A stretch of DNA of 64,000 bases from Paraescarpia echinospica (taxonomy: Eukaryota; Annelida; Polychaeta; Sabellida; Siboglinidae), in contig CM034533.1 of the NCBI GenBank assembly GCA_020002185.1, positions 39,878,743-39,942,742 of the forward strand. Direction: 5' to 3'. The notes under the pieces were generated by a model. That model saw only the letters and a list, made by a program, of their open reading frames with translations. It ran no database searches and was not told where the DNA came from. This document shows positions 364 to 49,132 of this stretch, one piece after another; within the stretch, counting starts at the first letter, position 1; each line of letters begins with the position of its first letter. Position numbers and translations under genes: made by a program.

Positions 364-480
364 ATATCAACGAGTGTGATAGCCAGCCTTGTCGGAATGG
401 AGCAGCATGTTCCACGCCCAACCTGAACATGTTTGTCTGCGCGTGTGAAGCTGGATACACTGGAAGTAACTGCGAAACAG
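364..480 (+). CDS. Copy A exon: EGF module 1
   Basis: 117 nt, phase 1-1, acceptor cag at 361-363 and donor gtataa at 481. It encodes [10 protein letters not shown] followed by the pattern C-x5-C-x10-C-x-C-x8-C, so all six EGF cysteines are present. The D-I-N-E-C start is of the calcium-binding EGF type. The loop before C4 (NLNMFVC) is shared by the other modules of this family. Confidence 0.9.
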
Positions 481-3400
481 GTATAATGCACAGCATGATA
501 TGTTTCAATAACTCAAGGGTGTTCACATTGGTATTTTATAGAGTAAACGCGAAAGATAATCAGCTTGCACAGACAACGCGTTTATATGGGTGGACTTACA
601 ACAGAAAACTTAATAGTACATTATTGAATATGCGTACAATACGCACCGTGCATTACAGCCGAGCAGTTCAGATTTCATAATCACACGTTGAACTATTACC
701 AAAACTATTTTTTGTCATCACGCGGAAAATTTAATTGTTTTAAACATGAATGACGACCAAATGCATCTTTATCGAATATATTCCCCAATAGCTATAATTG
801 ACTAAATTCAATCACTACGTATGTGAAATTAATATATCAAATGGTGCTTTTGTACTCAACGGTGGTGTATTGACACACGTAATCGAATGTGGTCTTGCGC
901 GATTGCGTAAAGTAATAAACCACAGTCTCATTCAATTACAGGTACATGAAATTTGCAAAGGTGCCGGTTTATACAAATACTGCCGACATATAATTTACGG
1001 AGGATTTACACAGAGGATAGCGAAAGACAGGCAGATCTGGAACTGATGTGTTGATGACTTCGCCCAACCAAGGGACACTACAGCTGCACAATGAAGATGA
1101 TGAAATCATGAGAATTTACATTGTGCACCTTTTGCACATATAAATGAAACCATGTGGTTACAAAATCAGAATATCGATTAAACCGACTTTCCATATTAAG
1201 CATTAGACAAATAATGATGTTTTTATTGTATTACCCATGGATTCGCAAATTCAGACGGACAGTTCCTCTAAATAACGATAGAACTTGCAAGATAAAATAT
1301 GAAATGTTGACGACATCTACATTAACTAAAAAATCAGTTTACACGTTATTTTAAAATAATAACCATTTGCAACATGGTTTCAGACATCAGTGAGTGTGCA
1401 AGCAACCCGTGCCAGAATGACGCCACTTGTTTTACGCCTCAGCTGCACATGTTTGCCTGCAAATGTGGCGAAGGATACAACGGAACTCATTGTGAAACAG
1501 GTATATGTTCTATAACAATACAACCAATTAAAATAGACACAATACCCAAAGCGGAAAAAGCACTTAATTGTTTTTTGTTTTAAACTATCCAATAAATGCA
1601 GTTGATACAAAGTAATTTATCACAGAAATAACTTGGATCATCATCTTTATGCTGATGATACAAATCACTCCCTTAACCAACTTAGTGATAGCCTCCAAAA
1701 TATCTTCCACTGGATGACTGACAGCAAGTTGAAATTAAATGCAAATAAAACTGAATTGATCATTATTGGTACTCCAATGCAGCATAGTAAACTTGATGGT
1801 TTTATCCCTACGCGTATTTTGAATCGGCGTATCACGCCAGCAACCTCGGAATCTAGGAGTGATCTTTGACAGTATCTTCAATTTCTGACAACACATATCT
1901 CAAACGTGTCGCTGCTGTTTTGATCATATTCGTGATCTTTGTCATATTCGCCAGTATATGTCATTTTCTGTTGCTAAGGCTATTGCAACAGTGCATGTTA
2001 GCAGCAGACTTGACTATTGCAATTCCCTCCTTTATAATATCGCTAGCAAGGATATTACAAAACTTCACTGCATCCAAAATTGTCTATCAAGGGTAGTTAC
2101 AATATCTCCTCGTTTTTTTTTTGCTCTGAACTACTTTTGAAGTCTGCATTGGCTTCCTGTATGATATTGTATAATATTTTTAAGATCTGTACCATTACAT
2201 ACCAGGCACTGTCCAGTAAGCAACCATCTTATTTGCATTCACTGGTTACTCCTGTAAGAAAACCTATCCAGCTTCGATCATCTAGTTCTGACCTACTTTT
2301 TGTTCCTAGAGTCAATACTAACATTGGAACTAGGGCTTTCTCTGTTGCTGCACCAACTCTTTGGAATATGCTCCCTCTTACGTCAGTTGAAAATATTTAA
2401 AAATTCCGTTGTCATTTAAAAACTTACTTTTACAACCTTGCTTATCCACCATAGTTCCCTAGCGCCTTGACCCATCTGTTGACAACTGGAATACTGCTTA
2501 TGGATTTTGAGATTGACCAATCATTTTGTCTTGATGCACCTCTGCATTTGGTTTCCTAGGATTTAGATGCAATTGAAGTTATCTTATTATTATTAAAGAT
2601 GTCAGATCACATAATTCAGCCTACCCATTGTGTAAACTTTCTAGGCCTTCTCATTGATGATAAACTTGACTGGCACGAACACATAAATTGAAATTGCAAA
2701 TATTGGAAAGTCTAGAGTCATAATGCTGGAACAATTTATAACAAATGTTTGAATAATATACTCCACGAGGCAAATGCAGGTTTTATTTTGCGCACAATCA
2801 GTAACATACTACGCGTATTGAAATGGTATAACTGGAAACTTAAATTGCCTACGTATGAATACTATATTCTGCAAAACATTTAATTTTATGCAGAAATAAT
2901 ACATTAATTAGCATATTATGCACATTACATTAATACTGTGTAATTCATGCAAAGTACTATCATTTTGCAACTAGTTGATTATTTGTAGTCTTACAACAAA
3001 AACTGTTTGAAAATAAACTGTTGAATCTTTTTTCTGAATGACACTTGTCCGCCACTGCAGATATCGACGAATGCGCGAGTGACCCGTGCGTGAACGGCGG
3101 ATCTTGCGTTGACCTCGTGAATTCTTACCAATGTAGCTGCACATCAGGTTACTATGGCAACATGTGCGAGAAAAGTAAGTAAAAAAATTCATATTAGAGT
3201 ATTTAAATCGATCTGACAAAATAACATACTGCAAGACGTAACCAATATCGACGCATTCCTGTTTCTCTTAGGGATCATTTCAGAACATTGGTGTCCGATA
3301 TTAGATGTATGAAATTACATTTGTTTGGGGAGGAGTCTCAGAGGCAGTTTTATATGGCATCGGACATTGATAGTTTACGCTTCCGACCGATACTGTTAAT

Positions 3401-6400
3401 ATAGTCATAGCAATGTTTGCAAACTTTTATCTGAAGAAGGGAGAGGGAGACTGAGGACATACGAAAGTAAATCATCTGATATCAAACATCGACTTCAACT
3501 CTTCAAGAAAATACTGCTAAAAAGTGATGCTTCACTATCCTGCAGTTTGCAACGTTGTTGTGGGCTAAAACAGTAAATACATAAGTTAATAAAATAAATA
3601 AATAAATAAAACTAAATCAAAATGTGCAGTTCATAATTAAAACAAAGCAGGCATCTGTAATGTCAATGACTGGATGACTGAGAGAGCGGCTCTTTGGAAT
3701 ATTTCTGTAGTGGACGCTGCAACTGCTTCCTGTGTGAGTGAGTTCCACAGTGGGAGAGATCGTACATAGAACGAGTGCTGGCAGTGTTCGTAGTTTATGC
3801 TTGTGTTTTCGTCTCGGTGCAGTCATCTACTTGGTAATGATGGCAGGGAAGCTGATGCGCACTAGTCCATGGTGAATTTTAAAGAACATAGTGGCATCTA
3901 GTTGAGCAGATGTGTGAAGAAGAGGGGTGGGATTCATAGATTTATGGGGGTACTTTGTTGGGAGAGAAGATATGTACATGAGAGATGGCCTCCATCTAAG
4001 TGGAAAGGGGGCAGCAGTATTTTCAGAAAACCTGCTGCAATCTGTTGACAGTGGGACAGGTTGCACCTATTTAAACTAGATTCGCAGGGGGGAATCACAG
4101 AGAAGCCTGACAGTGGAGGCATAGATAAAGACAGCACAAATAAATCAGCAAAGAGCAGTCTGGAAAACTTTTCTGAAGCTGGATATAAATGTGTTTGTTT
4201 AAATGCAAGGATTATAGTAAACAAAAGAAATGAACTAAACATTATGGTAGAAGATATTGACCCTCACATAATAGGTATAACCGAATCATGGGCAACCACC
4301 GATATATCAGATGCCGAATTGGGACTGACAGGATATGTAATGTTTAGGAAAGATAGAATAGGAAGAAGGGGAGGTGGAGTTATTTTATATATTAAAGAAT
4401 CTATCCAGGCTTATGAAATAAAATTAGAAAGAGAAGCAGATTGCGAAGAAGCTGTTTGGTGTAACATAGTTACAGGAAACTCAACGTTAACGGTTGGATT
4501 AGTTTATCGAAGTCCAAACATAAGCATAGAAGAGAATGAAAAAATACAAAACGCTATAAGGGAAGTGAGCAAACGGGACTGTGTTATTATGGGGGATTTT
4601 AACCATGGGCATATAAAATGGAAATCTCTACAGAGTATGGGGAGTGAGGACCACAAGTTTTTAGTTTTAGTACAAGATAGTTTCCTTTCTCAACATGTGC
4701 TAGAACCAACCAGGGGAGAGAATGTGTTAGACAGTTTTGTCCTCACAGAATGAATTAGTTGACAATGTCAGGATATGTGAGCCACTGGGAAATAGTGATC
4801 ACAACCAGATACATTTTACCATCAAAGTAAAATCAGAAAGGAATAGTAAAAAGCAGTACAGGAGAAATTTCCACAAAGGAAAATATAAGGACATAAGGAA
4901 ATATTTAGCAAAGATAGACTGGAATAACAGACTGAAGAATAAGACAGCAACAGAATACTGGAATATCGTAAAGAGTGAAATTGAATGCATCATCGTCAAA
5001 TTTGTTCCCTTAAAAAAACACAGGAAACGGTCCAAAAAGAAACACTTATCGAAAGAAGCCATTAGAAAAATTAAATATAAACAAATTATGTGGAAGTCAT
5101 ATAGACGTACTGGAAATGATGAAGATTACAACATTTATAAAGAAGCACTAAACCAAGCTACAGCTGAAATTAGAAATTCAAAGAGAAGCTATGAACATAA
5201 ATTAGCTTGTAATATAAAACATGACAGCAAGAGTTTTTATGCGTATGTTCGAAGCAAACAGAAAGTTCAGGATAAGGTCGGTCCTCTAGAAGATAGTGCT
5301 GGAAATATAATATCAGAAGGATTCTTAATGGCAGAAGACCTGAATGAGTATTTTAGTTCAGTGTTTACCAGAGAAGACACTAGTTCACTGCCAGTACCAG
5401 AGGCTAAGTTCAAGGGGGCAGAATCAGACTATTTAAGACAGTTAATTGTAACCCCAGAAATGGTAGCTAAGAAAATTAGGGCTATGAAGGATAATAAATC
5501 ACCTGGAGTGGATGGTATTCCACCCTAACTACTACTGGAAATTGTAGAAAAAATTAGCATACCGCTTGCAACAGTTTTCAAGTCATTAGAAGAGGGATTT
5601 GTTCCTTTAGAATGGAAAGAAGCAAACATTATACCGTTATTTTAAAAAAGTTCAAGAAACAAGTCAAATAATTATAGACCAGTTAGTTTAACATCGGTGA
5701 TTTGTAAATTATTAGAAAGACTAATTAAAGATCACATGGTGGATTTTCTTGTTAAACATTACTTGATAAACCCATCTCAACATGGGTTTCTAAAAGCGAG
5801 GTCATGCTTAACAAATATGTTATGTTTTTTGGAAGATATCACTAAGTGGGTAGATGATGGATCACCAGTAGATATCATCTACTTAGATTTTCAAAAAGCT
5901 TTCGACAAAATGCCACATCAAAGATTACTGCTTAAACTAAAGGCCCATGGCATAGGAAATGGTATAATTAACTGGATAGAAAAATGGCTGATTGACAGAA
6001 GACAACGGAAAGTTGTTGATGGGGAGGCTTCAAACTGGAAATCAGTTTTGAATGGGGTTCCACAGGGATCAGTACTGGGACCTATATTATTCTTAATATA
6101 TATAAATGATTTGGACGGTGATATAGCTAGCAAGGTGTTGAAATTTGCAGATGATACAAAAGTGTTTAGAAGGATTAAAAGTGATGGAGATAGACAGCAT
6201 TTACAAGATGATCTTGACAAGTTGATCAAATGGTCTGAAAAGTGGCAAATGTTGTTCAATTTTTGGAAATGTAAATGCCTTCACATGGGAACGAATATGT
6301 AGAATATACAATCGGGGGAATTATACTAAGTACTACTGTAAAAGAAAAAGACTTAGTGCTGACATGAAGGTTTCAGAGCAGTGTGGAAATGCAGCTTCAA

Positions 6401-9400
6401 AAGGAAATCAAATCCTTGGATTGATTAGGCGAAATATAGTATATAAAGAAAAAAACTAATAATACCGCTGTACAAAACAATAGTTAGGCCTTATTTAGAA
6501 TATTGTATACAAGCGTGGAGGCCATACCGCAAGAAGGACATAGATATGCTAGAAAGAGTACAGAGGAGAGCGACTAAAATGATACCAAAACTGAGGGATC
6601 TTAGTTATGAAAAATGCCTAAAAGAATGTGGTTTAACAACACTAGAGAGCAGGAGATTGAGATGAGATCAGATAGAAGTGTTTAAAATATTGAATGGTTA
6701 TGAAAATATTGATAGAAATATGTTTTTTTCAGTTAAGAAAGATAGAAAGACTAGAGGACATGAAGTTATATTAGTAAAGGAGCAGTGTAGATTAGACGTA
6801 AGAAAGTTCTCATTTTCACAAAGGACTGAATGAATGGAACAGATTATCTGATGATTGTGTGGGTGCTAGTAGTATGAATATGTTTAAAAATAAAATCGAC
6901 ACATACCTCAGAAGGGCTGGATATATGTAGATAAAAGGGTTGGACTCTCGCTAAGCCAAAGGGCTTCCTTGTCCACCTGCCATCTAGAGTTAATTCTCTG
7001 GATGGCAATCTTGTTAAATATTGTTAAATCTCTTAACGGACGTCTATTGTATAAAGTGTTCCACTTCAGGTTAGCGCACATAGTCATCACACTTGAGGTG
7101 CTGCGGTAATCAATGTTCAAAGATGAACATTAATGTTGTATTCTACTGTAATAACCCAATGGCTGGCCGCTACTACATCACAGCATTGGGGCGGAATATA
7201 CAATGGTTTGTGTAAGATGGTGTTATTGTTTTTACGCTAGTTTCTCATAGCATGGAACATGAGGCCTACCTTTGAAATATGTCTAAACTTTTCATAACGT
7301 AGATGCTAATTAATCCACACTCAAGGATGACCAAATTATGTATGTTTGTTACATGTTTGTATTGTCACTATTCACAGATCCTTAAAACCTAATTCATGCT
7401 TGGTTTACTTTCAGTAAAAGTGGCATCTGAGATAACCCGGGTAGCTCTCAAAGTGACGCTCAAGCAGGCAGAGTTTTCAACAAACCTGACGAAGAAAACA
7501 TCAAAGGCATACGAGGGTCTGAAGAAAACAGTCGTTGTGGCGGTAACTATTTTCTGTATACAAATAGAAATGTAAATGTTCAGCGAAAGGTTTCTAGATG
7601 AATAGGCTCATCAGACGGGATGGTTCAAATCGTTATTCTTTTACTGTTGTTCACAGTGAATTTACTTTTAACTCGTGATGTCTCGCTTTGCTATCAGCGA
7701 ACATCTTCAGAAGACTACCGCTAGATGGCTGTCACTACGCCCCCGGTGGCCTGGGTGGCTCATTAGGAGAACGTTATAGACATGTGAGAGTGATTAACAC
7801 GAACTTATATAAGGGCTACCGACTCTTACATATCTAAGACGATCTGAGGATCGCGGGGATACCAGTGACTGATAGACTGGTAGACTGATTGTGGGACATT
7901 TTACAGAATAATGACAATTGTGTCTTATTTGTACATTTATTTTCTATTTGTAATTGTTGCAACAGCGTACATGTTCTGCTCTATAGACGTATAAGAAAGC
8001 TATTGAATAGTTTTTACAATTCCGACCATGTTTGATCTTAGTAGCATTCTGGTGTCCCGTAGGTATCACTGATTTTTAAATTCATATTTTGTTTAACATA
8101 TTATTTCCAGATTTTCTGGTTTTGTTTTATTCCTTTGACCATTTGTATAACCAAGGTTTGTGTAAGAATTATCATATTGTATTTGGTATTAATATCCATT
8201 TCTTATTCCTGATTCCAATTTGTGGATTTTCTAAAATACAGCGTGACATATAACTTATACATTTTAATACACTCCACAAATTTTTTTATTTATAACACTT
8301 GGAGAATTTATCATTTCAGCTGGAAGCTATCCTTAACGAACAACTCGGACAAGGCATGTATACAATCGTGGATGTCACCTTCAGGTAAGATTAATAACAA
8401 AACTAGGTCATGTATGTGTTTCCGCATATTTGAATTGTAATATTGATCTTTGTTGACTACTTGTTTAAATGTTACAACCAATGCACATCCCATAATCCAG
8501 TATGTTACACAACTAATTTAACCCATAGCAGATCAAGTGTGTTGATGTTCAGGTATGCAATATGTCAATATGTTACTTTATGTGTGCAGACGGTGAAATT
8601 AATATTATCGAAATAATGTCTTTTGTCCTTAGATCGGGTATTTTTGCAAACGTACGAATTGTTTTGTGTTATAGTATACGGCGCCTGCTCACTGTCATAT
8701 TTCACAGAGTTTCGATTGGTTTAGCCAAAAATATATTAGTAGGTTGTCTGACGAGTCCATCAACATTAAACAACCAGTTTGCACAAACACACTACTATGT
8801 CGTAGTGGAAACTGGACAGATTTTCCGCAGAATTATTCTAAGATGAGACAAGAACAAATTATTTGCGGAAACAGATTAAACTTCCCATAAACGTATGAAA
8901 GTAATCATGTTGCCTATGTCCTTATCTCTAGCAAGGGCAGTGTCGTGGTGAACTACCTGCTGGAAATGCTGAAAGACGACCCCGCTGAAACATTGTCGAC
9001 CGTTCAGAATGCTATCAAGGAGAACAATGGAACATTTGCCGGATATGACGTCGACGTTAGTTCCATCACCACCAAAGGTAAGAACGGAGTCGATATAAGA
9101 ATAGCTCAGGGATCACTTCAGTTGTAATGCAATATTAATATAATTAATACAAAATCGACATTGCTTGTGGCAATTACAACCAAATAAACTTTATTAACCA
9201 AAACACTATGTCAACCATATAATGTCAACCATATAATGCACTGTGTTTTATACAAATTCTTTTCAATAAAAAAGTGTTTAAAACTTGCAGTAAGTATAGT
9301 TGCTTCTATATTTGCTCGATTATTTACACTGTGTTGCTGTTTATAATATATGCCATACATATACAGCCCTGTACATTACAAACAACGACGTCATACCCAA

Positions 9401-12400
9401 TAACAACCTAACCATATTATATCATATTATATGTGAGATATATACCCAAATGAGCTCCGACTATTTACGTTAATTAACATCTATGTAGATTGATCACTCC
9501 CACCGTAGGACATACAGTTGTACTTAGAATGTCCGTTCAGTTTTGTATTTGTAAAATAATAGCCTCATTCATATTGTAACCAGTATATCACGGTACATTA
9601 CTGTAGTGCGGAAGACCGTCCGATACTACGGACAATTCCGGGTGCCGAACTTGTCGTTCAGGAGAGAATGGAGCAACACTGCCTCGATGGAATACAAGAG
9701 TCTCTCAGCAACAGTCAGAGATAAGGTGTGTTGTGTGCGGAATACTGCTGGTTTGCAATTTAAGAATGCGTGGGGGTTGAGCTCCCAACACATAGAGTGG
9801 GGGTTTAGCCCACCAGTATTTTATTAACGTTGTTGGTGTTTTTATGAGGGTCATTGTTGGTGCATTTGGAGGTCCCCAGAAGATTTCCACCACTACCCCC
9901 TTGACTGTGTAAATATCTCCAATGCTACCCCTTCAACTGGGAAAAATCACCAACCCTTGACTGCGGAATACCTTCAACAACCCCACCCACCCACCCATCC
10001 CCCGTCTTTTGATGTCATGTCAGACAGCTGCGAAGTGCCGAGTCTCTGGCTTTGCCCCCACCCCCAACCCCAATATGCACCACATTCCAGCACTTATGGT
10101 TTGTTTAATAAACTAACATTACCTGTCCCTGTGCGACTGTACTATGCAACCTCCTCTCTCCTAGAAGACATGTACATGTTCTTTGCGAGTGTTTTGACGA
10201 GATGTAACACGAAACAATCACTTTCAGCTGGACACGTTCTACCGTGAAGAGATTGGATCCAAACTAATCGGTGTTTCGGACGTAACATTCACGTGCGTAC
10301 ACGTTTTCTACACTACTTAAAGAAGCCTAAGCAGCCAGCTATTTCACCCGACCTGCTTTGAAATGTCGAGTTAATGCATGTGTTAGTGGGGAATTACGTT
10401 CATACTGTAATACAGGTGTACCGGTTAGTTTGCAACAACATTATTTGGTGCAATTATAAAATAGTTTTACGGTCACCTCAGTAATACAGACACCTCACAA
10501 TTAAAGTGACCCTGGGACAGTCCGAAATAATTTTTTGTAACAGCAAAGTATAGGAAATTAGTCCCACTGATACGGTCACCTCGCTATTTAGGTCACTTTC
10601 GCCCTGTCCCGAGGGTGACCTTTCTATATATATCAGAGTCAACAACATTTGACAAGAACATAATGGCACAGAGACGATATAAGAAATGTCCTTAGATTAT
10701 ACTATTGACATGACATAATGGCACAGAGACGATATAAGAAATGTCCATAGATTATACTATTGACAACCTATTGACAAGAACATAATGGCACAGAGACGAT
10801 ATAAGAAATGTCCTTAGATTATACTATTGACGACCTATTGACATGACATAATGGCACAGAGACGATATAAGAAATGTCCTTAGATTATACTATTGACGAC
10901 CTATTGACATGACATAATGGCACAGAGACGATATAAGAAATGTCCTTAGATTATACTATTGACGACCTATTGACATGACATAATGGCACAGAGACGATAT
11001 AAGAAATGTCCATAGATTATACTATTGACGACCTATTGACAAGAACATAATGGCACAGAGACGATATAAGAAATGTCCATAGATTATACTATTGACGACC
11101 TATTGACAAGAACATAATGGCACAGAGACGATATAAGGAATGTCCATAGATTATACTATTGACGACCTATTGACAAGAACATAATGGCACAGAGACGATA
11201 TAAGAAATGTCCTTAGATTATACTATTGATGACCTATTGACAAGAACATAATGGCACAGAGACGATATAAGAAATGTCCTTAGATTATACTATTGACGAC
11301 CTATTGACATGACATAATGGCACAGAGACGATATAAGAAATGTCCTTAGATTATACTATTGACGACCTATTGACATGACATAATGGCACAGAGACGATAT
11401 AAGAAATGTCCATAGATTATACTATTGACGACCTATTGACAAGAACATAATGGCACAGAGACGATATAAGAAATGTCCATAGATTATACTATTGACGACC
11501 TATTGACAAGAACATAATGGCACAGAGACGATATAAGGAATGTCCATAGATTATACTATTGACGACCTATTGACAAGAACATAATGGCACAGAGATGATA
11601 TAAGAGATGTCCATAGATTATATTATTGATGACCTATTGACATGACATAATGGCACAGAGACGATATAAGAGATGTCCATAGATTATACTATTGACGACC
11701 TATTGACATGACATAATGGCACAGAGACGATATAAGAAATGTCCATAGATTATACTATTGACAACCTATTGACAAGAACATAATGGCACAGAGACGATAT
11801 AAGAAATGTCCATAGATTATACTATTGACGACCTATTAACATGACATAATGGCACAGAGACGATATAAGAAATGTCCGTAGGTTATACTATTGACGACCT
11901 ATTTGTAACGCAGTAAGATATAGGTGCGGTCGGGTTAGACATGATAACACAATTATGACAAGATAATCACATACATTTGCCTGAACAGGAAGGGGAGTCT
12001 CGTTGTCGACTTCTCTCTGTGGGTCGAAGACAGCGTGGAAATGAACACTTTGAAGGATATCTTCATGAGGCAAAGTCAACTCATGTTCGAACATGAATTT
12101 GTTGATCTCAATAGCCTCATGCTAGCTGGTGAGTTTAATATTAAAATAATAATAGTAACAAACAATCAGTACGTCCATATAAAAACTTATATAAATAAAA
12201 AAGTATACCCATAAAATACGTCGATGCAAACAGTATATTTAAAAATTATATAAAGACAGGATCCACTGTTGCCGCAATTGCAACATAGAGTACAATGTTC
12301 TGAATAATGGTATTCATAGACATGTCGGTCCTCGTCACGAAGGTAAATATAGCCGTTCTGATACCTTAATTTACATGATTATACAATTGATGTGGGTAAC

Positions 12401-13799: not shown

Positions 13800-13840
<41 letters not shown>

Positions 13841-37317: not shown

Positions 37318-37404
37318 CTGTTCAGGCAAACATATGTGATTATCTTATCATAATGGTGTTATCACGTCTAACCCGACCGCACATATATCTTACAGCGCTA
37401 CAAA

Positions 37405-37889: not shown

Positions 37890-37944
37890 CTGAAAGTGAT
37901 TGTTTCATGTTACATCTCATCAAAACACTCGCAAAGAACATGCA

Positions 37945-39068
37945 TACGTCTTCTATGAGAGTGGAGTTTGCTTAATACATGTATACGTCTTCTATAAGAG
38001 TGGAGGTTGCTTAATAAATGTATACGTCTTCTATAAGAGTGGAGGTTGCTTAATAAATGTATACGTCTTCTATAAGAGTGGAGGTTGCTTAATACATGTC
38101 TACGTCTTCTATAAGAGTGGAGGTTGCTTAATACATGTCTACGTCTTCTATGAGAGTGGAGGTTGCTTAATACATGTCTACGTCTTCTATAAGAGTGGGG
38201 GTTGCTTAATACATGTCTACGTCTTCTATAAGAGTGGATGTTGCTTAATACATGTCTACGTCTTCTAGGAGAGTGGAGGTTGCTTAATACATGTCTACGT
38301 CTTCTATAAGAGTGGAGGTTGCTTAATACATGTCTACGTCTTCTAGGAGAGTGGAGATTGCTTAATACATGTCTACGTCTTCTAGGAGAGAGGAGGTTGC
38401 TTAATACATGTCTACGTCTTCTAGGAGAGTGGAGGTTGTTTAATACATGTCTACGTCTTCTAGGAGAGTGGAGGTTGCTTAATACATGTCTACGTCTTCT
38501 AGGAGAGAGGAGGTTGCTTAATACATGTCTACGTCTTCTAGGAGAGTGGAGGTTGCTTAATACATGTCTACGTCTTCTAGGAGAGTGGAGGTTGCTTAAT
38601 ACATGTCTACGTCTTCTAGGAGAGAGGAGGTTGCTTAATACATGTCTACGTCTTCTAGGAGAGTGGAGGTTGCTTAATACATGTCTACGTCTTCTAGGAG
38701 AGTGGAGGTTGCTTAATACATGTCTACGTCTTCTAGGAGAGTGGAAGTTGCTTAATACATGTCTACGTCTTCTAGGAGAGTGGAGGTTGCTTAATACATG
38801 TCTACGTCTTCTAGGAGAGTGGAGGTTGCTTAATACATGTCTACGTCTTCTGGGAGAGTGGAGGTTGCTTAATACATGTCTACGTCTTCTAGGAGAGTGG
38901 AGGTTGCTTAATACATGTCTACGTCTTCTATAAGAATGGAGGTTGCTTAATACATGTCTACGTCTTATAGGAGAGTGGAGGTTGCTTAATACATTTCTGC
39001 GTCTTCTAGGAGAGTGGAGGTTGCTTAATACATGTCTACGTCTTCTAGGAGAGAGGAGGTTGCATAGT
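37945..39068 (-). repeat. 39-bp minisatellite, about 28 copies, in copy B intron
   Basis: The unit is aggttgcttaatacatgtct plus acgtcttctaggagagtgg. Left units carry ctataag and right units ctaggag, so the array has regional variants. Copy A has one unit at 10147-10185 (gcaacctcctctctcctaga). The 39-bp period leaves the + strand open over 204 codons by arithmetic only. Confidence 0.95.
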
Positions 39069-39437
39069 ACAGTCGCACAGGGACAGGTAATGTTAGTTTT
39101 TTAAACAAACCATAAGTGTTGGAATTTGGTGCATATTGGGGTTGGGGGTGGGGGCAAAGCCTGAGACTCGGCACTTCGCAGCTGTCTGACTAACATGGAA
39201 GATTGGGGGGTTGTTGTTGAAGGTATTCCGCAGTCAAGGGTTGCAGATTTTTACGCGGTCGAGGGGGTAGTGATGGAAATCGTGTGGGACCTCCAAAAAG
39301 CACCACCGATGACACTCATCAAAACAGCAACAACGTTAATAAATTTTTGGTGGGCTAAACCCCCACTCTATGTATTGGGAGCTCAACCCCCACGCATTCT
39401 TAAATTGCAAACCGGCAGTATTCCGCACACAACACAC

Positions 39438-39555
39438 CTTACATATGACTGTTGCTGAGAGACTCCTGTATTCCATCGAGGCGGTGTTGCTCCATTCTCT
39501 CCTGAACGACACGTCAGGCACCCGGAATTGTCCGTAGATTCGGGCGGTTTTTGCA
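39438..39555 (-). pseudogene. Copy B SEA2 first exon with lost acceptor
   Basis: The coding stretch [20 protein letters not shown] is kept and the donor gtgtgt is intact. The copy A sequence ttactgtag that ends the intron is deleted and one nucleotide is missing in the first codons. The next upstream AG (in accag) would give the wrong frame. Confidence 0.75.
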
Positions 39556-40028
39556 CGTGATATACTGGTTACGATACGAATGAGGCTACTATACAAAACT
39601 GAATGGATATTCTACGTACAACTGTATGTCTTATGGTGGGAGTGATCAATCTAATTAACGTAAATAGTCGGAACTCATTTGGTCGGAACTCACTCGTCGG
39701 AACTCAAAGACATAATATGGTTAGGTTGTTATTGGGTATGAGGTTGTCGTTTGTAATGTATATGTATAGCGTATATTGTAAACAGCAACACAGTTTAAAT
39801 AATCAAGAAAATATAGAAGCATCTATACATACTGCCAACTTTAAACAAGTTTTTATTTAAAAGAATTCGTATAAAACACAGGACAATTTGACATAGGGTG
39901 TTGGTTAATGATAAAGTTTATTTGGTTGTAATTGCCACACGCAATGTCGATTTGTGTATTCATTATATTAATATTGCATTATAACTTAAATGACCCATGA
40001 GCTATTCATATAGCGAGACCGTTCTTAC

Positions 40029-40174
40029 CATTGGTGGCGATGGAACTAACGTCGACATCATATCCGGCAAATATTCCATTGTTCTCCTTGATAGCATTCT
40101 GAACGGTCCACATTGTTTCAGCGGGGTTGCCTTTCAGCATTTCCCGCAAGTAGTTCACCACGACACTGCCGTTG
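40029..40174 (-). pseudogene. Copy B SEA1 last exon with cleavage motif
   Basis: 146 nt; the junction reads [20 protein letters not shown]. The G-S-V-V-V motif is unchanged; the residue before G is N instead of K. Confidence 0.87.
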
Positions 40175-40728
40175 CTGGAGATAAGGACATAGGCAACATG
40201 CTTACTTTTATACGTTTATGGGAAGTTTAATCTGTTTCTGCAAATAATTTTTTCTCGTCTCATTTTAGAATAATTTTGCGGAAAATCTGTCCAGTTTCCA
40301 CTACGTAGTAGTTTGTTTGTGCAAACTGGTTGTTTAATGTTGATGGACTCGTCAGACAACCTACTAAACTATTTTTGGCTAGCCCAATCGACACTCGGTG
40401 AGACATGACAGTAAGCAGGCGCCATATATCATAACACAAGGCAATTCGTAGGTTTGCAAAAATACCCGATCTAAGGACCAAAGTAATTATGTCGATGATT
40501 TTACTTTCACCGTCCGCACACATAACGTAACATATTCATACACTACATATCTGAACATTAACACACTTGATCTACTATGGGTTAAATTAGTTGTGTAGGA
40601 TACTGTAACATATTAGAGTGTGGGAGGTGCATTGGTTTTAACCATTAAACAAGTAGTCAGCAATGCTCAATATTACAATTCAAATAAGCGGAAACATATA
40701 CATAACATAGTTTTGTTATTAATCTTAC

Positions 40729-40793
40729 CTGAAGTTGACGTCCACGATTGTACACATGCCTTGTCCGAGTTGTTCGTTAAGGATAGTTTCCAG
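40729..40793 (-). pseudogene. Copy B SEA1 middle exon
   Basis: 65 nt; [20 protein letters not shown]. Tyr in copy A is Cys here, an unpaired cysteine in a domain that normally has none at this place. Confidence 0.85.
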
Positions 40794-41354
40794 CTGAAAT
40801 AATAAATTCTCCAAGTGTTATAAATAAATATTTTGCAGAGTGTACTAAAATGTATAAGTTATATATCACGCTGTATTTTAGAAAATCCACAAAGCCAACG
40901 CTGGAATCATGAATAAGAAATGGATATTAATACCAAATACAATACGATAATTCTTATACAAACCTTGGTTATACAAATGGACAAAGGAATAAGACAAAAC
41001 CAGAAAAGCTGGAAATAATACATTAAATAAAATATGAATTTAAAAATCAATTATACCCACGGGACACCAGTGATACCTACGGGACACCAGAATGCTTCTA
41101 AGATCAAACATAGTCGGAATTGTAAAAAAACCAATTCAATAGCTTTCGTATACGTTTGTAGAGCAGAACATGTACACTGTTGTAACGATTTCAAAAAGGG
41201 AATAAATGTACAACTAAGACACAGTTGTCATTATTCTGTAAAATGCCTCACAGTCAGTCTACCTTCTTTCGTAACCTGTCTGATGAGCCTATTCATTCAA
41301 GACACAACTGTCGCTGAACATTAACAGTTCTGTTTGTATACAGAAAATAGTTAC

Positions 41355-41482
41355 CGCCACAACGACTGTTTTCTTCAGACTCTCGTATGTCTTTGACGTT
41401 TTCTTCGTCAGGTGTGGTGAAAACTCTGCCTGCTTGAGTGTCACTTTGAGGGCTACCCAGGTTATCTCAGATGCCACTTTTC
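41355..41482 (-). pseudogene. Copy B SEA1 first exon
   Basis: 128 nt; [20 protein letters not shown] then SPHLTKKTSKTYESLKKTVV. Splice sites are intact. The N-L-T sequon of copy A is changed to H-L-T. Confidence 0.85.
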
Positions 41483-41932
41483 CTGGAAGTAAACAGAGCA
41501 TGAATTAGGTTTTACGGATCTGCAATTAGTGTCAATACAAACATATAACCAACTTCAAGAATACATGATTTGGTCATCCTCGAGGGTGGATTTACTAGCA
41601 TCTACGATATGAACATTGTAGACATATTTCAAAGGTAGGCCTTATGCTCCATGCGATGAGAAACTAGTGTAGAAACAATAACACCATCTTACACAAACCA
41701 TTGTGTATTCAGCCCCACCCCAATGCCATGTGTAGTAACGGCCAGCCATTGGGTTATTATAGTAGAATACAACATTAATGTTCATCTCTGAACGTCGATT
41801 ACCGCAGCACCTCAAGCGTAACGGCTATGTGCGCCAATCTGAAGTGGAACACTTTATACACTAGACGTCGGTTAAGAGATGCCGTTATGTTCTTTAATTT
41901 AAATGCTGCAATATGACATTTCTTAGACTTAC

Positions 41933-42046
41933 TTTTCTCGCACTTGTTGCCGTAGTACCCCGATGTGCAGCTACTTTGGTAAGAATTCACGAGGTCAACG
42001 CAAGATCCGCCGTTCACGCACGGGTCGCTCGCGTATTTGCAGACAT
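41933..42046 (-). pseudogene. Copy B EGF3 with altered cysteines
   Basis: 114 nt, in frame. Copy A's [10 protein letters not shown] is DVCKYASDPC here, so the first cysteine has moved two residues toward the N-terminus. YQCSC is YQSSC, so the fourth cysteine is lost. Five cysteines remain, which should disrupt the EGF disulfide pattern. Confidence 0.87.
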
Positions 42047-42199
42047 CTGCAGTGGCGGACAAGTGTCATTCAAAAAAAGATTCAACAGTTAATTTTAAAG
42101 CAATTTTTTTGTAAGAAATGATAGTAGTTTGTATGAATTACACAGTGTTAGATTTTTGCGGTTTTTAATGATGGATTATCAAAATATGTGGTAGCCACG

Positions 42200-42346
42200 A
42201 TGGCGGACGGCATTACTTCAACTAGTGATTTACCGCCGTACGTTTTAGACAGATTATTTGACAGTTTTAGCGAAGAATCTTTGTCGGATGTTGTAGTCTC
42301 ACTTAACCGACTCTCGCCTGGCTGCTTGACTTCGCCAGAAAGATAG
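42200..42346 (+). CDS. Short ORF, 48 residues, inside the copy-B insertion
   Basis: ATG in a favourable context (gccacgATGG) opens MADGITSTSDLPPYVLDRLF then DSFSEESLSDVV. The acidic, well-formed start suggests the N-terminus of a real, probably transposon-borne, protein that is cut off where the tagtctcac repeat begins (about 42290); the last codons come from that repeat. Confidence 0.35.
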   Translation: MADGITSTSDLPPYVLDRLFDSFSEESLSDVVVSLNRLSPGCLTSPER

Positions 42347-42712
42347 TCTGGCTCTGAATGGCTCTTCTGAATGTTATCCGCTAGATGGTAACACTGGTAT
42401 ACTCATGAATTATAGCGTCATCAATTTATGAAGTTATATGTGATATATTGTCAAGATTTGCCGTGTTTTAATAATTATTAGTCTCGCTTAACCGACTCTC
42501 ACCTGGCTGCGTGACTTCGCCAGGAAGAGAGCCTGGCTCAGAATCACGTTTTGACTGCTCACTGCCAGTTTGCACGTCTATCCCCCAGAATCTTTTTATA
42601 TTATGTATGTTTTCGATAACGAAATTAAATTACGAAATAGTGCCCAAAATAATGTTACACAAAATAAATTAATATTAAACTAAATGAACACAAACAAAAG
42701 TTTCGAGTACAC

Positions 42713-42785
42713 TGCGGAATTCGAACCGAGGATCCTAAGAATAGCTGCTCGATACGCTACCGACTTAGCCACCAAGGTCAGCACG
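42713..42785 (-). ncRNA. tRNA-like sequence, probably a tRNA-derived SINE head
   Basis: Minus strand shows a box A (tggctaagtcggtagcg) and, about 30 nt later, a box B (ggttcgaattcc). The tRNA cloverleaf is imperfect (no clean acceptor stem seen), so a SINE head or tRNA pseudogene is more likely than a working tRNA gene. Confidence 0.5.
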
Positions 42786-43446
42786 TTTTGGTTGTTCTTT
42801 GGCGACTACATATATTAGTTAGTAGTCCGACCGTTGCGCGAGACATCGATTGCACTTTGGTTAATTAAAGTTGTCCTTGTTTGGTATTTATATCATACAC
42901 TTAGTATTGTGATATGGCTCATTTTACTCGCTGATTATCATACATTCAGAAAATGTATAACATTCCTATTCATAAAATGCATTTTGTTGCTCAAATCTTG
43001 ACTTGAAGTGAGGTAGTCCATTATCCTGCATATTCACTGGGAATGCAGTATTCAGTGGTCACAGCTGATCAGGGTTGTAGTAGTGAAATGGTTAATGTAT
43101 CATTTCTGCATAAAAATGACACTAATTAAATGTTTTTCGTAGAATATAGTATTCATACGTAGGTAATTTAAGTGTCCAGTTATACCATTTCAATACGCGT
43201 AATATGTTATTGACAGTTCGCAAAATTAAGCCCGCATTTGCCTCGCGGAGTATATTATTCAGACCTTTGCTATAAAGTGTTCCAGCATTATGACTCCAGT
43301 CTTTCCAATATTTGCAATTTCTCTGACGAATTACTTTGTATCAACTGCATTTATTGGATAGTTTAAAACAAAAAAACAATCAAATGTTTGCTGCACTTTG
43401 GGTATCGTGGCTATTTCAATTGGTTGTATTGTTACAGAACATATAC

Positions 43447-43563
43447 CTGTTTCACAATGAGTTCCGCTGTATCCTTCGCCACATTTGCACGCAAACATGT
43501 GCAGCTGGGGCATAAAACAAGTGGCATCATTCTGGCACGGGTTGCTTGCACACTCACTGATGT
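43447..43563 (-). pseudogene. Copy B EGF2 exon
   Basis: 117 nt; [20 protein letters not shown] ... [19 protein letters not shown] with six cysteines. N-G-T of copy A is S-G-T here. Splice sites are intact. Confidence 0.88.
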
Positions 43564-43990
43564 CTGACACCATGTTGCAAATGGTTTTTATTTTTTTAAA
43601 CGTGTAAACTGATTTTCAGTTAACGTAAATGTACTCTATGTCGGCAACATTTCATATTTTATCTTGCAAGTTCTATCGTTATTTAGAGGAACTGTCCTTC
43701 TGAATTTGCGAATCCACGGGTAATACAATAAAATCATCATCATTTGTATAATGCGTAATATGGAAAGTCAGTTTAATTGATATTCTAATTTTGTAATGGC
43801 ATGGTTTCATTTATATGTGCAATAGATTAACAATGTCAATTCTCATAATTTCATCATAATCATTGTGCAGCCGTAGTGTCCCTTGGTTGGGCGAAGTCAT
43901 CAACGTGTCGATTCCAGATCTGCCTGTCTTTCGCTATCCTCTGCGTAAATCCTCCGTAAATTATATGTCGATAGTTCTTATATAAACCGG

Positions 43991-44150
43991 GGACTGGTTT
44001 CATGACGCGCACTTAAAGTTACGCAATTACTTAGCGTCACGTGTTTGCATAAACTCCTATGTTCGCTTATATTAAACAAAATCACGTCATTTACTAAGAT
44101 AATCATCTTAGCGTTAAGAACGTTCTTAGCCGCTTCATGAAACCGGCCTC
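43991..44150. mobile_element. 160-bp MITE-like element in copy B
   Basis: Ends are ggactggtttcatgacgcg and, inverted, gaggccggtttcatgaagcg. Copy A runs straight from ataaaccgg to cacctttgcaaat at about 957-975, giving the empty site. Confidence 0.75.
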
Positions 44151-44554
44151 CACCTTTACAAATTGCACGTAGCCGTAATGAACGAGACAGTGGTTTCTTA
44201 CTCCACGTAATCGCGCAAGGCCGCGTCCTGTTACGTAAGTCAATATTTCACCGTCGAGTACAAATGCACCATTTGATATTTATTTCACTTACCTAATGGT
44301 TGAATTTAGCCAATTAAAGCTCAATATTGGGGAATATATTCGGTAAAGATGCAGTCGGTTGTCATTCATGTTGAAGACAATTTAATTTTGCGCGTGATGA
44401 CCGCGTCATGACCAAAACATTGTGTTGGTAATAGTTCAACGTGTGTGATTATGAAATCTGAACTGCTCGGCTGTAATGCACGGTGCGTATTGTATGCATA
44501 TTCAATAACGTAGTATTAAGTTTTCTGCTGTAAGTCCGTCCCTATGTGATACAA

Positions 44555-44920
44555 AAAAGGCAGCGGCATAGCTATATATAAGATAACATGAACAATAATA
44601 TTATATTCTTCTTAATAATTCCTAGTATAATTATATTCTACAGAAACCGCAGGATATCTTATTAATGTATTTTACATCATATTCTTTTTTAATTAGACCT
44701 GCTTGATTTTGGGCTAAACCTGCATCATTCAACTACATGTATACTGTTTTAGCCCATAATGTCCCTTAATGAATGAGTAGCATTAAAATGTAGCACAATA
44801 TGCGTTACACATGTTTATAAGTGTCCGGTGCTGATACCACTGCCCCATTACAATAAATGTTCCGCCATATTTTATCAATACCATCCCACAGTTAGTGTTA
44901 TTAAAATATAATATACGGAG
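44555..44920. other. Copy-B sequence replacing the second half of an EGF exon
   Basis: Homology to copy A stops at 44921 (inside the EGF1-like exon) and restarts at about 44555 (copy A about 578). The stretch between is unrelated and AT-rich; copy A 434-577 is absent. Confidence 0.65.
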
Positions 44921-44990
44921 AACATGTTCAATTGAGGCGTGGAACAGGTTGCACCATTCTGACATGGCTGCCTTGAACATTCGTTGGTAT
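44921..44990 (-). pseudogene. Copy B truncated EGF exon
   Basis: Acceptor gctacag is intact; the exon encodes DTNECSRQPCQNGATCSTPQ then LNMF and stops matching. Cysteines 4-6 and the donor are gone. Skipping it would keep frame because it is a phase 1-1 exon. Confidence 0.8.
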
Positions 44991-45057
44991 CTGTAGCTAT
45001 GCAATAGTTATCTATAAGTATTTAATCATTTATTTTTAAGACGTTTTAATGCTTTAA

Positions 45058-45402
45058 AGCACTGGCACTTTTCGCCCGACTAGACCAGACCAGACCAGAC
45101 GACACCACAACAGACTCCCTCCGGCTGCAGTGTATCAACTAGTGACTACACCGAGTGAGAGCGAGTGCGCTGTATTCTAAGCCGGCGTGACGTCATAATC
45201 ACGTAAGCTTGACAACTTTCGAATACGTCAGACTGATACCGACTATTTCTGACATAGTGCAAGTTTTCAAGTTTTTTGTGATTATGATGTCACGCCGGCG
45301 TATTGTACAACGTTGTTGGTGTCAGTCGGTGTGGTGGAGGTACTTCAGTCGAAGGGAGTCTGGTCTGGTCTGGTCAGATCTGGCAAAAAGTGCCAGTGTA
45401 TA
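45058..45402. mobile_element. 345-bp fold-back MITE
   Basis: Ends cactggcacttttcgcc and ggcaaaaagtgccagtg are inverted repeats. The arms continue with agaccagaccagaccagac against gtctggtctggtctggtc and gccggcgtgacgtcataatc against gattatgatgtcacgccggc. It sits in a copy B intron. Confidence 0.8.
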
Positions 45403-45481
45403 CAGTTTTTTAACTAAAGTACACGTTAACGTTTTTACATATTGCTATGACAACGTTACACGATATCCGTATATGCTCTAC

Positions 45482-45598
45482 CTCTTTCACAATGAGTTCC
45501 GGTGTATCCTTCGTCACATTCGCAGGCGAACATGTTCAGCTGAGGTGCGGAACACGTGGCGCCGTTCTGGCACGGGCTGCTTGCACATTCATTGATGT
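45482..45598 (-). pseudogene. Copy B EGF exon, intact
   Basis: 117 nt phase 1-1; DINECASSPCQNGATCSAPQ ... NMFACECDEGYTGTHCERG, six cysteines, donor gtagag. It has no counterpart in the visible part of copy A, where it would lie left of position 1. Confidence 0.85.
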
Positions 45599-45885
45599 CT
45601 GAAAACATGTTGCAAAGGATTCTTCACAAACGTTCTTGGTTGTACTCTATGTAGTCAACTATTCATGTTCTACCGTTTTCGAAAGACATGTTACTGTATT
45701 CGCCAGACCATGCGAGAATACATGTGCAATGCAATAGGACGATATTAACTGGTTGATATGTGTAACATAAAATGTAGATTTATATTGGGCCAACAGCATT
45801 AAATGCCTAAATTGAATAGTTATATTTTGATTTGCAACGCTTCAAATTGGATATTATTATGATTATGTATTTATGCATAGTTTAC

Positions 45886-46002
45886 CTGTTTCACATTGAC
45901 TTCCGGTATATCCATTTTCACACTTGCATGCAAACATGTTCACGTCAGGCATAGAACACGTTCCACCATTCTGACATGGATGACTCGAACATTCGTTTAT
46001 AT
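45886..46002 (-). pseudogene. Copy B EGF exon, intact
   Basis: 117 nt phase 1-1; DINECSSHPCQNGGTCSMPD ... NMFACKCENGYTGSQCETG, six cysteines, donor gtaaac. Coding potential of this exon itself is undamaged. Confidence 0.85.
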
Positions 46003-46029
46003 CTGCACGTAATACATTAATAATAAAAT

Positions 46030-46130
46030 AAAATGAGTAATAAAGAGAGAAAGAGAAGGGGAGGGGAAGAAGGAAGGAGGGAAGGAGGGAAGGAAGGAGG
46101 GAGGGAGAGGGAGAGTTAGAGAGAGCATGC
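46030..46130 (+). repeat. Purine-rich simple repeat (ggaa/ggag)
   Basis: agagaaag, ggaaggagg and gagaggg words over about 100 bp. Confidence 0.9.
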
Positions 46131-46469
46131 TGAATTGAAGTAAGATTTTATTGGTTTAAATACTATTTGCAATGAAAACATGATATCCTTAAGACTTGTC
46201 ATATTTCTTACTGTGTTATTGTAATAATGTACAGCCTTATTAGCGACAAACTAATTGCAGTTATCAAAGCATGTTCGTGTTAAATGACGATAGAAAATAT
46301 GTTGGATATCAGTGTAAAATTGGACGAAATGCCACAGAATAAGATTAGAACATGCACCACAGGAAGAGATCATGTGACAACAACATCATTAAAATCATTC
46401 GTTCTGACTACCAGTCGTGTTGCTGGTACCAGTATTTATGACGGTACATACATATGTCAATGTCATCAA

Positions 46470-48483
46470 ATTGAAACAACTTACCTCCCACAATTACTAA
46501 ACCAACACGTATCACCCATACATCTGCAACCCTTATTGATAATATTTAGGTAAGCCATACACATTCAATTGTCCATTCTGGCATACATTATAACGACATA
46601 TCGGATCATTTGCTTATATTTTGTTTAATTGGCAAACGGAAATCACCCAAACCATTACACGAGCCGCTTATCTTCAAACATAAATCAGTTTCCGAAGCAT
46701 CTATCCATCATATAACTTCCGCTCTTAAAGAAATTGATTGGACTCACTTACATCGGTTAGATATAAATAATGCATTTAAAGAATTTATGACACAATTCCT
46801 TAATGTTGTTGATTCCCTTGACCCAGATCACATTTTTATGAACAAATCAAAATATGTAATCAGGAATGAATGGATGACCAAAGGTCTAATGAAATCTTCT
46901 ACAACATCCAGTAAACTTTATAGAAAATGTATTGGTAAATCAAAGACACATTCCACTTACGTTCGTTATACTAAGTATAGAAATCTTTATAATAAACTAA
47001 AGCATATTGCTAAATTAACTTATTATTCTAACCTATTACACGAATTCAAGAATGATTCTAAAAAGACATGTCAGATACTTCGAACAATAATCGGGAAACA
47101 AAATGATAAATCAAGTATCCCTACATATTCCAAGCTCAACACTGACTTAATTAATTACCCTGATCACATTTCGAATACATTTTGTAATTTCTTTACAAAC
47201 ATTGGACCGAGTTACGCTAAAGCAATCCCTAAGCCCAAACCAATTGTACCGCTTATCTAGACAAAAGCCATGGTAAAAGTATGAATAGTATGTTTATGAA
47301 TCCCACTGATGCAAGTGAAGTCAGCCAAATAATAAGGTCTCTTCAACCCAAGAAAAGTTGTGGGTCTGACAATTTAAGTCCGTTCTTTCTAAAACAAATT
47401 GGTGAAGGAGTGTCTCTACCAATTGATATACTGATAAACAAGTCTTTAAGTGAGAGAATTGTACCAGACGAATTAAAAATTGCTAATAAAACTATACCAG
47501 CAAATAAATTTAAAATTCCACGAAACATCACATTCGGTGTGCCGCAGGGCTCTATTCTTGGTCCACTTTTATTTATCTTATACACAAATGATCTCCCCTT
47601 TTGTCTGAAACAAAGTAAAGCAATAGCATTTGCTGAAGACACCACTATATATATATGAATGGAAATCATATTACTAAACTTTACAATGGCATAAATAAAG
47701 AACTCCAAGTATTAGCCGACTGGTTTCATGGTAATAAGCTCTCATTAAATGTATCCAAATCAAAATATAATATGTTGTTTTCTAGGTCACGACATCTACT
47801 TAGTGAACAAATAACGTTAAACATGTCAGATCAGACAATTCAGCCTACCCATTGTGTAAACTTCCTAGGCCTTCTTATTGATGATAAACTTGACTGGCAT
47901 GAACACATAATTGTCTGCAGAAAAAACTTCCAGGTGCTCTATATGTTATAAATAAAGTTAATCGCTTTCTTCCTGTAGAATCCCTAAAAACGATTTACTA
48001 TGCATTAGTATACCCATATTTGACATATGGAATAATCCTTTGGGGATCTACACATAAAAGCTACACAAAGAAATTATTCATTATGCAAAAACAATTGTTT
48101 GTAGTATTCTTTGAACTGCTTTCCATGAGCATACTCATCTCCTGTTCATACGGTTAAATGTACTGAAATTTAAGGATATTTATGAAATAAAAATTGCGAA
48201 ATTTATATATAATTATTGTCATAAAAATCTGCCAGTGTCGTTATCTGATATTTTTATTGTAACCTGTGATATTAACAATCATGACACAAGGCAACTTAGA
48301 CATGTTCGTCCAATCGGCAGTTCTACCCTACGATCATCAAATAATTTATTATGTAATGGGCCGATAGTATGGAATAATAATTCGTCTGATATTCAAACTA
48401 AACCTACTATTACCAGCTTTGTATCTTCTCTAAAGCCATGTGTCTTAAAACACTATGTCCATGAAGAGACTACACCGTATTAA
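46470..48483 (+). mobile_element. LINE with internal deletion of the RT core
   Basis: Endonuclease end (ITKPTRITHTSATLIDNIF, SGIHYNDISDHLLIF), linker of about 200 residues (46610-47260) and RT start (LQPKKSCGSDNLSPFFLKQI, LSERIVPDELKIAN). The text then jumps at about 47490 to KTIPANKFKIPRNITFGVPQ and GSILGPLLFILYTNDL, skipping the NYRPIS and KAFDTVDH regions. Later parts are present (AFAEDTTIYI instead of [39 protein letters not shown]), ending HYVHEETTPY and stop. It sits in an intron of copy B on the opposite strand. Confidence 0.85.
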
Positions 48484-49015
48484 ATGTGTTATCACTCTTG
48501 TGTTTTTTATTATTTGATTAGTCTTAAACGGTTTATGAAAATACTACTACATATTACATAGTTATTACTGGATTGTTCTTCTGCAATCTAGCACTGTTTT
48601 GTTTTCTAATTTATTAGTTTTTGATTGCGTGTCGAGAAAATAAACTGGACAATAAAAGATGAGGTTGAAAGTTGTGCATTTCTGCCAAAATCACAAAACT
48701 GATGGGACGTGACGTAGACAGCTATTTCTGGATCTTGTGCGGAATAAGTATGTGCGACTTCATACCCAGTTCGTCGTGGCTGACTACAAATGCAATTTTG
48801 CTTGCAATGACTGTATTTGGTTGTTGTAAAGAAAGCTAGGTCTTATCAGGTGCTATGCATATATGTGGACCCTACGCCAACATGTACAAGGGTATTAACT
48901 GGAAGGGACGGGCGCCATTTACTGCACTCGCAAGACGTGTCTGGTGTTTGTGGTTAGCATGTATAAGAAAGATTGTTGATACAATCGGTAGTCAAGTGTA
49001 GTGGTTTTAAATGTC
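48484..49015. other. No gene seen
   Basis: Unique sequence between the LINE and the degenerate EGF exon. Confidence 0.5.
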
Positions 49016-49019
49016 TCAC

Positions 49020-49132
49020 CCATACTGCACGTTCTCCCAGTGTAACCTCCAGCTTAGTTGCAGATGAAACCGTCCACCTGATCAAGACTGAACCACCATT
49101 CTCACAAGGGCCGCTGCCACATTCATCAATGT
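49020..49132 (-). pseudogene. Copy B degenerate EGF exon
   Basis: Acceptor ctttcag and donor gtgaga survive, but the length is 113 nt instead of a multiple of 3. The start reads DIDECGSGPCENGG; after a one-base loss the second half reads in another frame as DQVDGFICN, stop, AGGYTGRTCSMG. The stop stands where a cysteine is expected. Confidence 0.8.

Follow-up and report, generated by a model that had tools for sequence, protein, structure and literature searches.

A probable three-copy cluster of a MUC4-type mucin-like gene, with a decayed inverted fragment, in the tubeworm Paraescarpia echinospica

Introduction

The closest described relatives of the gene treated here are vertebrate MUC4 and the cnidarian mucin4-like genes, which have in common with it NIDO, VWD and MUC4-type C8-3 domains, EGF modules, a transmembrane (TM) segment and a stalk rich in serine and threonine. 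According to the available part of PMC9080433, transmembrane mucins carry a SEA domain with the exception of MUC4, a proposal is cited that MUC4 lost an ancestral SEA domain, and some cnidarian (sea anemone) mucin4-like genes have one. The gene described below differs from MUC4 in having two SEA domains, where the MUC4 proteins covered in that part of the paper have none, and in that AMOP was not detected. We analysed a window of 64,000 bases (the whole stretch of DNA under study) from the tubeworm Paraescarpia echinospica (assembly GCA_020002185.1, contig CM034533.1, here C3, forward strand), which contains two related copies, A and B, of the back part of this gene. The original prediction had described them as two copies of an EGF-SEA-SEA-TM gene in convergent orientation.

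The genome of P. echinospica was reported as 1.09 Gb in 14 pseudochromosomes (PMC8476170). The accessible text of that paper reports a significant expansion of EGF-domain proteins in vestimentiferans, and places mucin-like proteins among the genes whose high expression is confined to the collar, the tube-forming region. No gene, domain order or locus is named in that text for these tubeworm proteins, and they could not be matched to the copies described here. The main text of the Ridgeia genome paper (PMC9921365) does not contain 'mucin', 'NIDO', 'nidogen' or 'SEA domain'. We found no paper on a SEA-bearing MUC4-type architecture in the tubeworm literature, the broader searches being judged by their top-ranked results only.

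The three copies and their extent

With a probability of roughly 0.78, and judged from sequence, we consider the window to be a corner of a three-copy MUC4-type mucin-like gene cluster, in which copy A is a partial duplicate and copy B a decayed inverted fragment. The third copy, C, is located on the plus strand, 31-109 kb beyond the window. As this third copy exists, the picture of two equal copies is rejected, and the window was found to hold only the back part of the gene. All coordinates are window positions, with position p corresponding to C3:39878742+p, and genome-wide searches covered 1.08 Gb in 3111 contigs. Copy A has the following parts in the window.

1-14370, plus strand: copy A, 3' part of the mucin-like gene (EGF-EGF-EGF-SEA-SEA-TM-tail), from exon models, splice sites, Pfam and homology to C
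364-480, plus strand: EGF exon, 117 nt, open, AG/GT bounded, Pfam EGF match on the joined protein
1384-1500, plus strand: EGF exon, 117 nt, exon model and Pfam EGF match
3061-3174, plus strand: EGF exon, 114 nt, exon model and Pfam EGF match
7415-7542, 8320-8384 and 8932-9077, plus strand: SEA1 exons (128, 65 and 146 nt), which carry G-SVVV
9607-9725, 10228-10292 and 11989-12128, plus strand: SEA2 exons (119, 65 and 140 nt), which carry G-SLVV
13612-13762, plus strand: TM exon, 151 nt, from alignment, its phase fitting both neighbours
13795-14060: CT tract
14113-14370, plus strand: last exon with cytoplasmic tail and stop codon, from its counterpart in C and homologous tails in some tubeworm proteins

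Joined together, these exons have no internal stop. Pfam analysis of A gave EGF matches and a SEA match in two stretches (61.7 bits).

A and C were compared after matches shorter than 250 bases had been left out. Positions -25868 to 26012 of A correspond to 126440 to ~177470 of C in the same orientation, in a piecewise collinear way, the homology thus extending upstream of the window to about C3:39852874. The exons of C stand on one strand in the domain order given below, and A is a direct duplicate of the back part of C, about 51 kb long, of which the last ~5 kb lie past the gene. B is an inverted duplicate of only about 14 kb within the part shared by A and C; its similarity in C is confined to ~155727-172530. 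A 592-bp probe from A gave three full-length matches, namely itself, B (88%) and C3:40040168-40040776 on the plus strand (87%). The remaining 37 of the 40 matches scored, out of 72 candidates, span only the first ~85 bases of the probe, which belong to a dispersed repeat. The left start of the A/C homology is adjoined in C by a 72-bp minisatellite (124498-126321; 24-residue unit when translated).

The inverted arrangement of A and B was borne out by self-BLAST of the window, from which matches shorter than 150 bases were left out. Collinear minus-strand matches join A 592-13851 to B 44537-35499 at 82.6-89.9% identity (E down to 0), and fainter similarity extends to A 13962 and B 35127, in agreement with the predicted alignable extent of 580-14050 against 44555-35140. 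Similarity was not limited to exons, as introns match all along. The copies are convergent, as had been claimed, with a spacer of about 20 kb. In the inverted register A and B have 58 exact runs of at least 24 nt in common, the longest of 121 nt, against one such run in the direct register and none where A was compared with 14.6 kb of spacer sequence. The window contains no N, and there is none from -39999 to 68784; the closest N gaps are at 68785-69784 and -66999 to -62000.

The original prediction placed the outer end of the duplication at 580/44555. This breakpoint is ruled out by B homology that resumes upstream of A, beyond the left edge of the window: B 44577-45986 corresponds to A -294 to -1644, B 48593-49203 to A -2151 to -4841 (with a gap) and B 49204-49330 to A -4931 to -5061, and homology to C reaches B 49463. 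The outer end of B lies in an intron between EGF exons. The inner end is the CT tract after the TM exon, at the place predicted, since the B counterpart of the CT tract of A (~35127-35545) contains the breakpoint. The last exon of A has no match found in B, as was also foreseen. The predicted exon lengths hold in A (117, 117 and 114; 128, 65 and 146; 119, 65 and 140 nt), but in B the 119-nt exon is damaged. A further predicted exon of 21 nt was not found, though no special search for one was made, and the last exon of A is the one at 14113-14370. Copy B consists of the following.

35127-49463, minus strand: copy B, putative inverted pseudogene fragment, truncated at both the 5' and the 3' end, from self-BLAST, homology to C and lesions
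49020-49132, minus strand: EGF exon, 113 nt, with a 1-bp deletion and frameshift, aligned to A -4759
45886-46002, minus strand: EGF exon, 117 nt, six cysteines
45482-45598, minus strand: EGF exon, 117 nt, six cysteines
44921-44993, minus strand: EGF exon, broken off past the third cysteine
43447-43563, minus strand: EGF exon, 117 nt, six cysteines
41933-42046, minus strand: EGF exon, 114 nt, in which one conserved cysteine is missing and another displaced
41482-41355, 40793-40729 and 40174-40029, minus strand: SEA1 exons, open, Pfam SEA 30.7 bits
39438-39555, minus strand: first SEA2 exon, 118 nt against 119, acceptor deleted (14 bp) and 1 bp lost inside
37889-37825 and 37317-37178, minus strand: further SEA2 exons, open
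35590-35728, minus strand: TM exon, 139 nt, open, with a 12-bp in-frame deletion

The duplication ends adjoin a TG run (left end of A), a 60-bp minisatellite (right end of A) and the CT tract (inner end of B). As these ends lie near repeats, repair or replication slippage at the repeats is suggested. An inverted duplication of the replication type, at the level of DNA, would have given rise to B at about the time of the A/C duplication, and B would then have decayed as a pseudogene. The locus is like an ordinary tandem or inverted segmental duplication in that introns were copied, that ends lie near simple repeats and that the partial copy has lesions, and we noted no differences. Taken together, the locus looks like the product of ordinary segmental duplication, followed by decay, within a mucin-like family that is expanded.

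Domain architecture of the encoded protein

The front of the gene was found in C. An open frame at 94742-117320 (C3:39973484-39996062) has 7,526 codons over 22.6 kb, of which 57% encode threonine, in 8-residue units of the TTTTTEAP type. It has a hydrophobic start, MTCYVILLLMIAVV, that resembles a signal peptide (judged by eye), and it runs into an EGF motif. Four further EGF motifs follow, and then three pieces assigned to NIDO, of which NIDO-a is at ~122.4 kb, NIDO-b at ~123.3 kb and NIDO-c at ~126.5 kb. Next come VWD at ~144.4 kb, a MUC4-type C8-3 domain at ~145 kb, a cadherin-like domain, EGF modules, two SEA domains, the TM segment and the tail. The threonine-rich frame is on the same strand as NIDO and upstream of it, and we infer that the exons of C form one transcript. 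The tubeworm mucin-like records show no long threonine stalk at the N-terminus (threonine fraction 0.04-0.11 in the first 300 residues of 33 proteins), for which the exons may be unannotated.

The product would most likely be a cell-surface mucin with a threonine-rich stalk, NIDO, VWD, C8-3, EGF modules, two SEA domains, a TM helix and a short tail. The Pfam search covered a joined A/C protein and, for VWD, C8-3 and the cadherin-like domain, the corresponding pieces of A. VWD (28.6 bits) and C8-3_MUC4 (34.9 bits) were both above the cut-off. NIDO scored 31.9 bits in the joined protein against a cut-off of 25, over profile positions 99-185 of 186 only, and the A piece alone gave 23.4 bits, under the cut-off. 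The first half of NIDO was assigned not by Pfam but by position and by the Ridgeia protein P0009, where this sequence lies directly beside the NIDO match. For AMOP, which MUC4 in the strict sense combines with NIDO and VWD, there was no Pfam match at E <= 0.01 in the A segment or the joined protein, and the gene is therefore called mucin-like and MUC4-type, not MUC4.

Both SEA domains of A have a G-S[VL]VV motif. In A and four Lamellibrachia proteins the SEA1 motif GSVVV is invariant, and the SEA2 motif is GSLVV or GSVIV. We take G-SVVV and G-SLVV to be the expected SEA self-cleavage sites, cut at G-S. Self-cleavage there would be expected to leave a membrane stub to which the stalk stays bound non-covalently. 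A search of PDB sequences gave no meaningful match to a solved structure.

The joined A/C query matched 27 proteins at E <= 1e-20. These comprise 14 of Ridgeia piscesae and 10 of Lamellibrachia satsuma, besides three others (Saccostrea, Potamilus and Branchiostoma). The name mucin-like is given in at least one source for 19 of the 27, and one L. satsuma protein is named DOCK. Vestimentiferan tubeworms are the source of the closest named proteins. Ridgeia P0008-P0010 have NIDO, VWD, C8-3_MUC4, EGF and SEA in a single protein in the order found here, covering 94-97% of the query at 45-53% identity. Two SEA motifs are present in P0009, P0010, P0019 and P0025, and five of the 33 retrieved proteins have the tail motif SPTxxK. 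None of the automatically annotated mucin-like records of Ridgeia and Lamellibrachia is similar enough to count as a clear ortholog of the present cluster.

A has in common with C everything from NIDO-c onward. For the parts in front of it (NIDO-a, NIDO-b, the first EGF motifs and residues 1-40 of the threonine frame) no significant tblastn match was found from -79999 to -25868, a region with a 5-kb gap inside, and no threonine-rich frame was among the long frames listed for the region left of A. Genome-wide, the NIDO-b exon had one near-identical place, which is that of C itself, the runner-up being at 74%. Either A lost its front recently, or the front was missed by the assembly, or another start is used.

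A coding repeat of 60 bp, which encodes a 20-residue half-EGF unit, has 14 units in A (-14610 to -13768) and 27 in C (150967 to 152593). The A units shown end in GAAG/GTAC, and one in GAAA/GTAC, a possible splice donor; alternative donors could in that case change the number of in-frame units.

Divergence, constraint and the decay of copy B

Divergence was determined in 11 hand-chosen blocks common to all three copies, about 5.4 kb of shared sequence. The pairwise differences were 10.8% for A-B, 11.0% for A-C and 11.9% for B-C, which is near a star. In 1000 block bootstraps the closest pair was A-B in 588, A-C in 410 and B-C in 2; this comparison is unrooted, as no outgroup was close enough. 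Each copy also has private sequence. C has an inserted element of ~3.8 kb with terminal repeats that are 93% alike, B has ~0.9 kb of extra sequence, and the 67-bp (A) and 39-bp (B) minisatellites are not common to the two. The insertions and minisatellites of A and B are the following.

3894-7031, plus strand: retroelement of the LINE (long interspersed nuclear element) type in an intron of A, with Pfam endonuclease and RVT_1, the site being empty in B and C
1629-2690, plus strand: ~1.06-kb insertion in A only, with empty sites in B and C and a possible short target-site duplication
10649-11903: 67-bp minisatellite in A, no counterpart within the aligned part of B
37938-39071: 39-bp minisatellite in B, no counterpart within the aligned part of A
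24617-26012: 60-bp minisatellite where the direct duplication of A and C ends on the right

Non-synonymous (dN) and synonymous (dS) divergence was compared over 609 nt of SEA codons, without the TM exon, the last codons of the third SEA2 exon and the beginning of the first SEA2 exon, which is damaged. The dN/dS values were 0.032/0.086 for A-C, 0.091/0.082 for A-B and 0.093/0.107 for B-C. Codons changed in one copy only were non-synonymous and synonymous in a ratio of 28:5 in B, 6:4 in A and 6:7 in C (Fisher test of B against A and C together, p = 0.015). Over 12 EGF pairs of equal length A-C gave 0.030/0.081, and over three other pieces (NIDO, VWD and cadherin-like) 0.004/0.065. Based on this protein-level constraint common to A and C, A appears to have been functional during much of its life, despite the front exons not found. 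Taken as a whole the SEA codons of B show little sign of constraint, which would have been lost, with single exons giving a mixed picture. Based on its lesions taken together, we read B as a pseudogene fragment; in the EGF exon at 49132-49020 a stop comes later in the frame of the intact protein, the shifted frame being open to the exon end.

Several results weigh against this view of the cluster. In B, three EGF exons with six cysteines and both SEA motifs are retained. By the codon-position test B could not be told apart from A and C (p = 0.40), dN was below dS in 3 of the 6 SEA pieces compared between A and B, and the same was true for two of the four EGF exons compared (0.025/0.183 and 0.040/0.235), but not for the other two. 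The tail exon showed weaker constraint between A and C (0.073/0.140, with 6 synonymous and 12 non-synonymous codons). One unit of the 60-bp coding repeat in A is 56 bp long, which shifts the frame. In C, the third SEA2 exon (169130-169261) has lost 8 bp at the end of SEA2, so that the TM exon is no longer in frame and a stop comes ahead of the TM segment; one EGF exon is without an acceptor and another is degenerate. C may thus be decaying too, or the assembly may be wrong at the SEA2 frameshift. As C is also frameshifted, no copy is flawless end to end in the present assembly. C is moreover placed past the 1-kb N gap at 68785-69784, and its distance from A and B therefore rests on scaffolding.

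Of the other explanations, the one that survives best, although improbable, is that both A and B work, as convergent paralogues, with B coding for a shortened form. The retained cleavage motifs and the two EGF exons with dN below dS would fit this, as would the open state of most exons in the SEA and TM part and the in-frame 12-bp deletion in the TM exon. A working B is difficult to combine with the deleted SEA2 acceptor and the 1-bp loss behind it, with one frameshifted and one truncated EGF exon and a lost cysteine, with the lack of a last exon among the matches found and of front exons, and with SEA codons that are unconstrained overall.

Less probable still is an assembly artefact, in which B would be a haplotype copy of A or C that had been collapsed or put in the wrong place. 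The locus is full of tandem repeats, and the 8-bp frameshift of C and the frameshifted repeat unit of A are changes that assembly errors could produce. However, the copies diverge by ~11% over the ~5.4 kb compared, the insertions of A have clean empty sites in B and C, the minisatellites differ, and the surrounding sequence from -39999 to 68784 is free of N. A collapsed haplotype is made unlikely by the divergence and the private insertions, and was rejected on these grounds.

It is about equally doubtful that B has been retained as a source of double-stranded RNA (dsRNA), by read-through from A into B or by convergent transcription. The result would be a long hairpin, together with small RNAs that target A, C and their relatives. 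The convergent orientation, the perfect inverted matches between A and B and the occurrence of some other family members in inverted pairs would suit such a role. Against it, the spacer is long, B drifts like the introns of the other copies, and its SEA codons look unconstrained. The more specific idea that B is kept as an antisense or hairpin partner whose long dsRNA tunes a large mucin-like gene family has a slightly smaller chance yet. If it were true, inverted pairs elsewhere in the family would be further hairpin cases, unless they are assembly duplicates. Finally, a retrotransposed or exon-only origin of B is refuted by introns that align along the length at 82-90% identity, with no point found in its favour, and the original claim of a segmental, not retrotransposed, duplication stands at the DNA level.

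The wider family and minor features

Searched against the genome, the protein from SEA to tail gave at least 77 matches at exon level, a count that takes in those of A, B and C, with 114 of 165 candidates scored. The NIDO-b exon matched 68 places, that of C included, on C1, C2, C3, C4, C5, C7, C8, C10 and four small contigs. Clusters of the mucin-like family were found on C1, C3, C5, C7, C8 and C10, and a large family of predicted mucin-like genes is present in this genome. A few pairs of family members are inverted, for example C1:88585367+/88630252-, where the scores are equal or nearly so, and C10:29878863+/29926485-; such pairs may be assembly duplicates.

The family expansion is not new in general terms, since the accessible text of PMC8476170 already reports the EGF-domain expansion and the collar mucin-like proteins. 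A role in tube or collar mucus would be the natural guess for the present gene, by analogy. As a duplication the locus is routine, and more interest attaches to the MUC4-type architecture with SEA domains and to its large family. An annelid family with NIDO, VWD, C8-3, EGF and two SEA domains would provide material to test the proposed loss of SEA in MUC4 outside cnidarians.

Some minor features were observed around B and in the spacer. Beyond the outer end of B there are long GTG and GTGA/TGTG simple-sequence arrays, at 50331-51165 and 51887-54292. On the minus strand of the spacer, 21057-22281 contains two open frames of 254 and 133 codons, with no Pfam match at E <= 0.01. A palindrome-like inverted repeat of 0.6 kb (72-79%) is located at 32053-32630.

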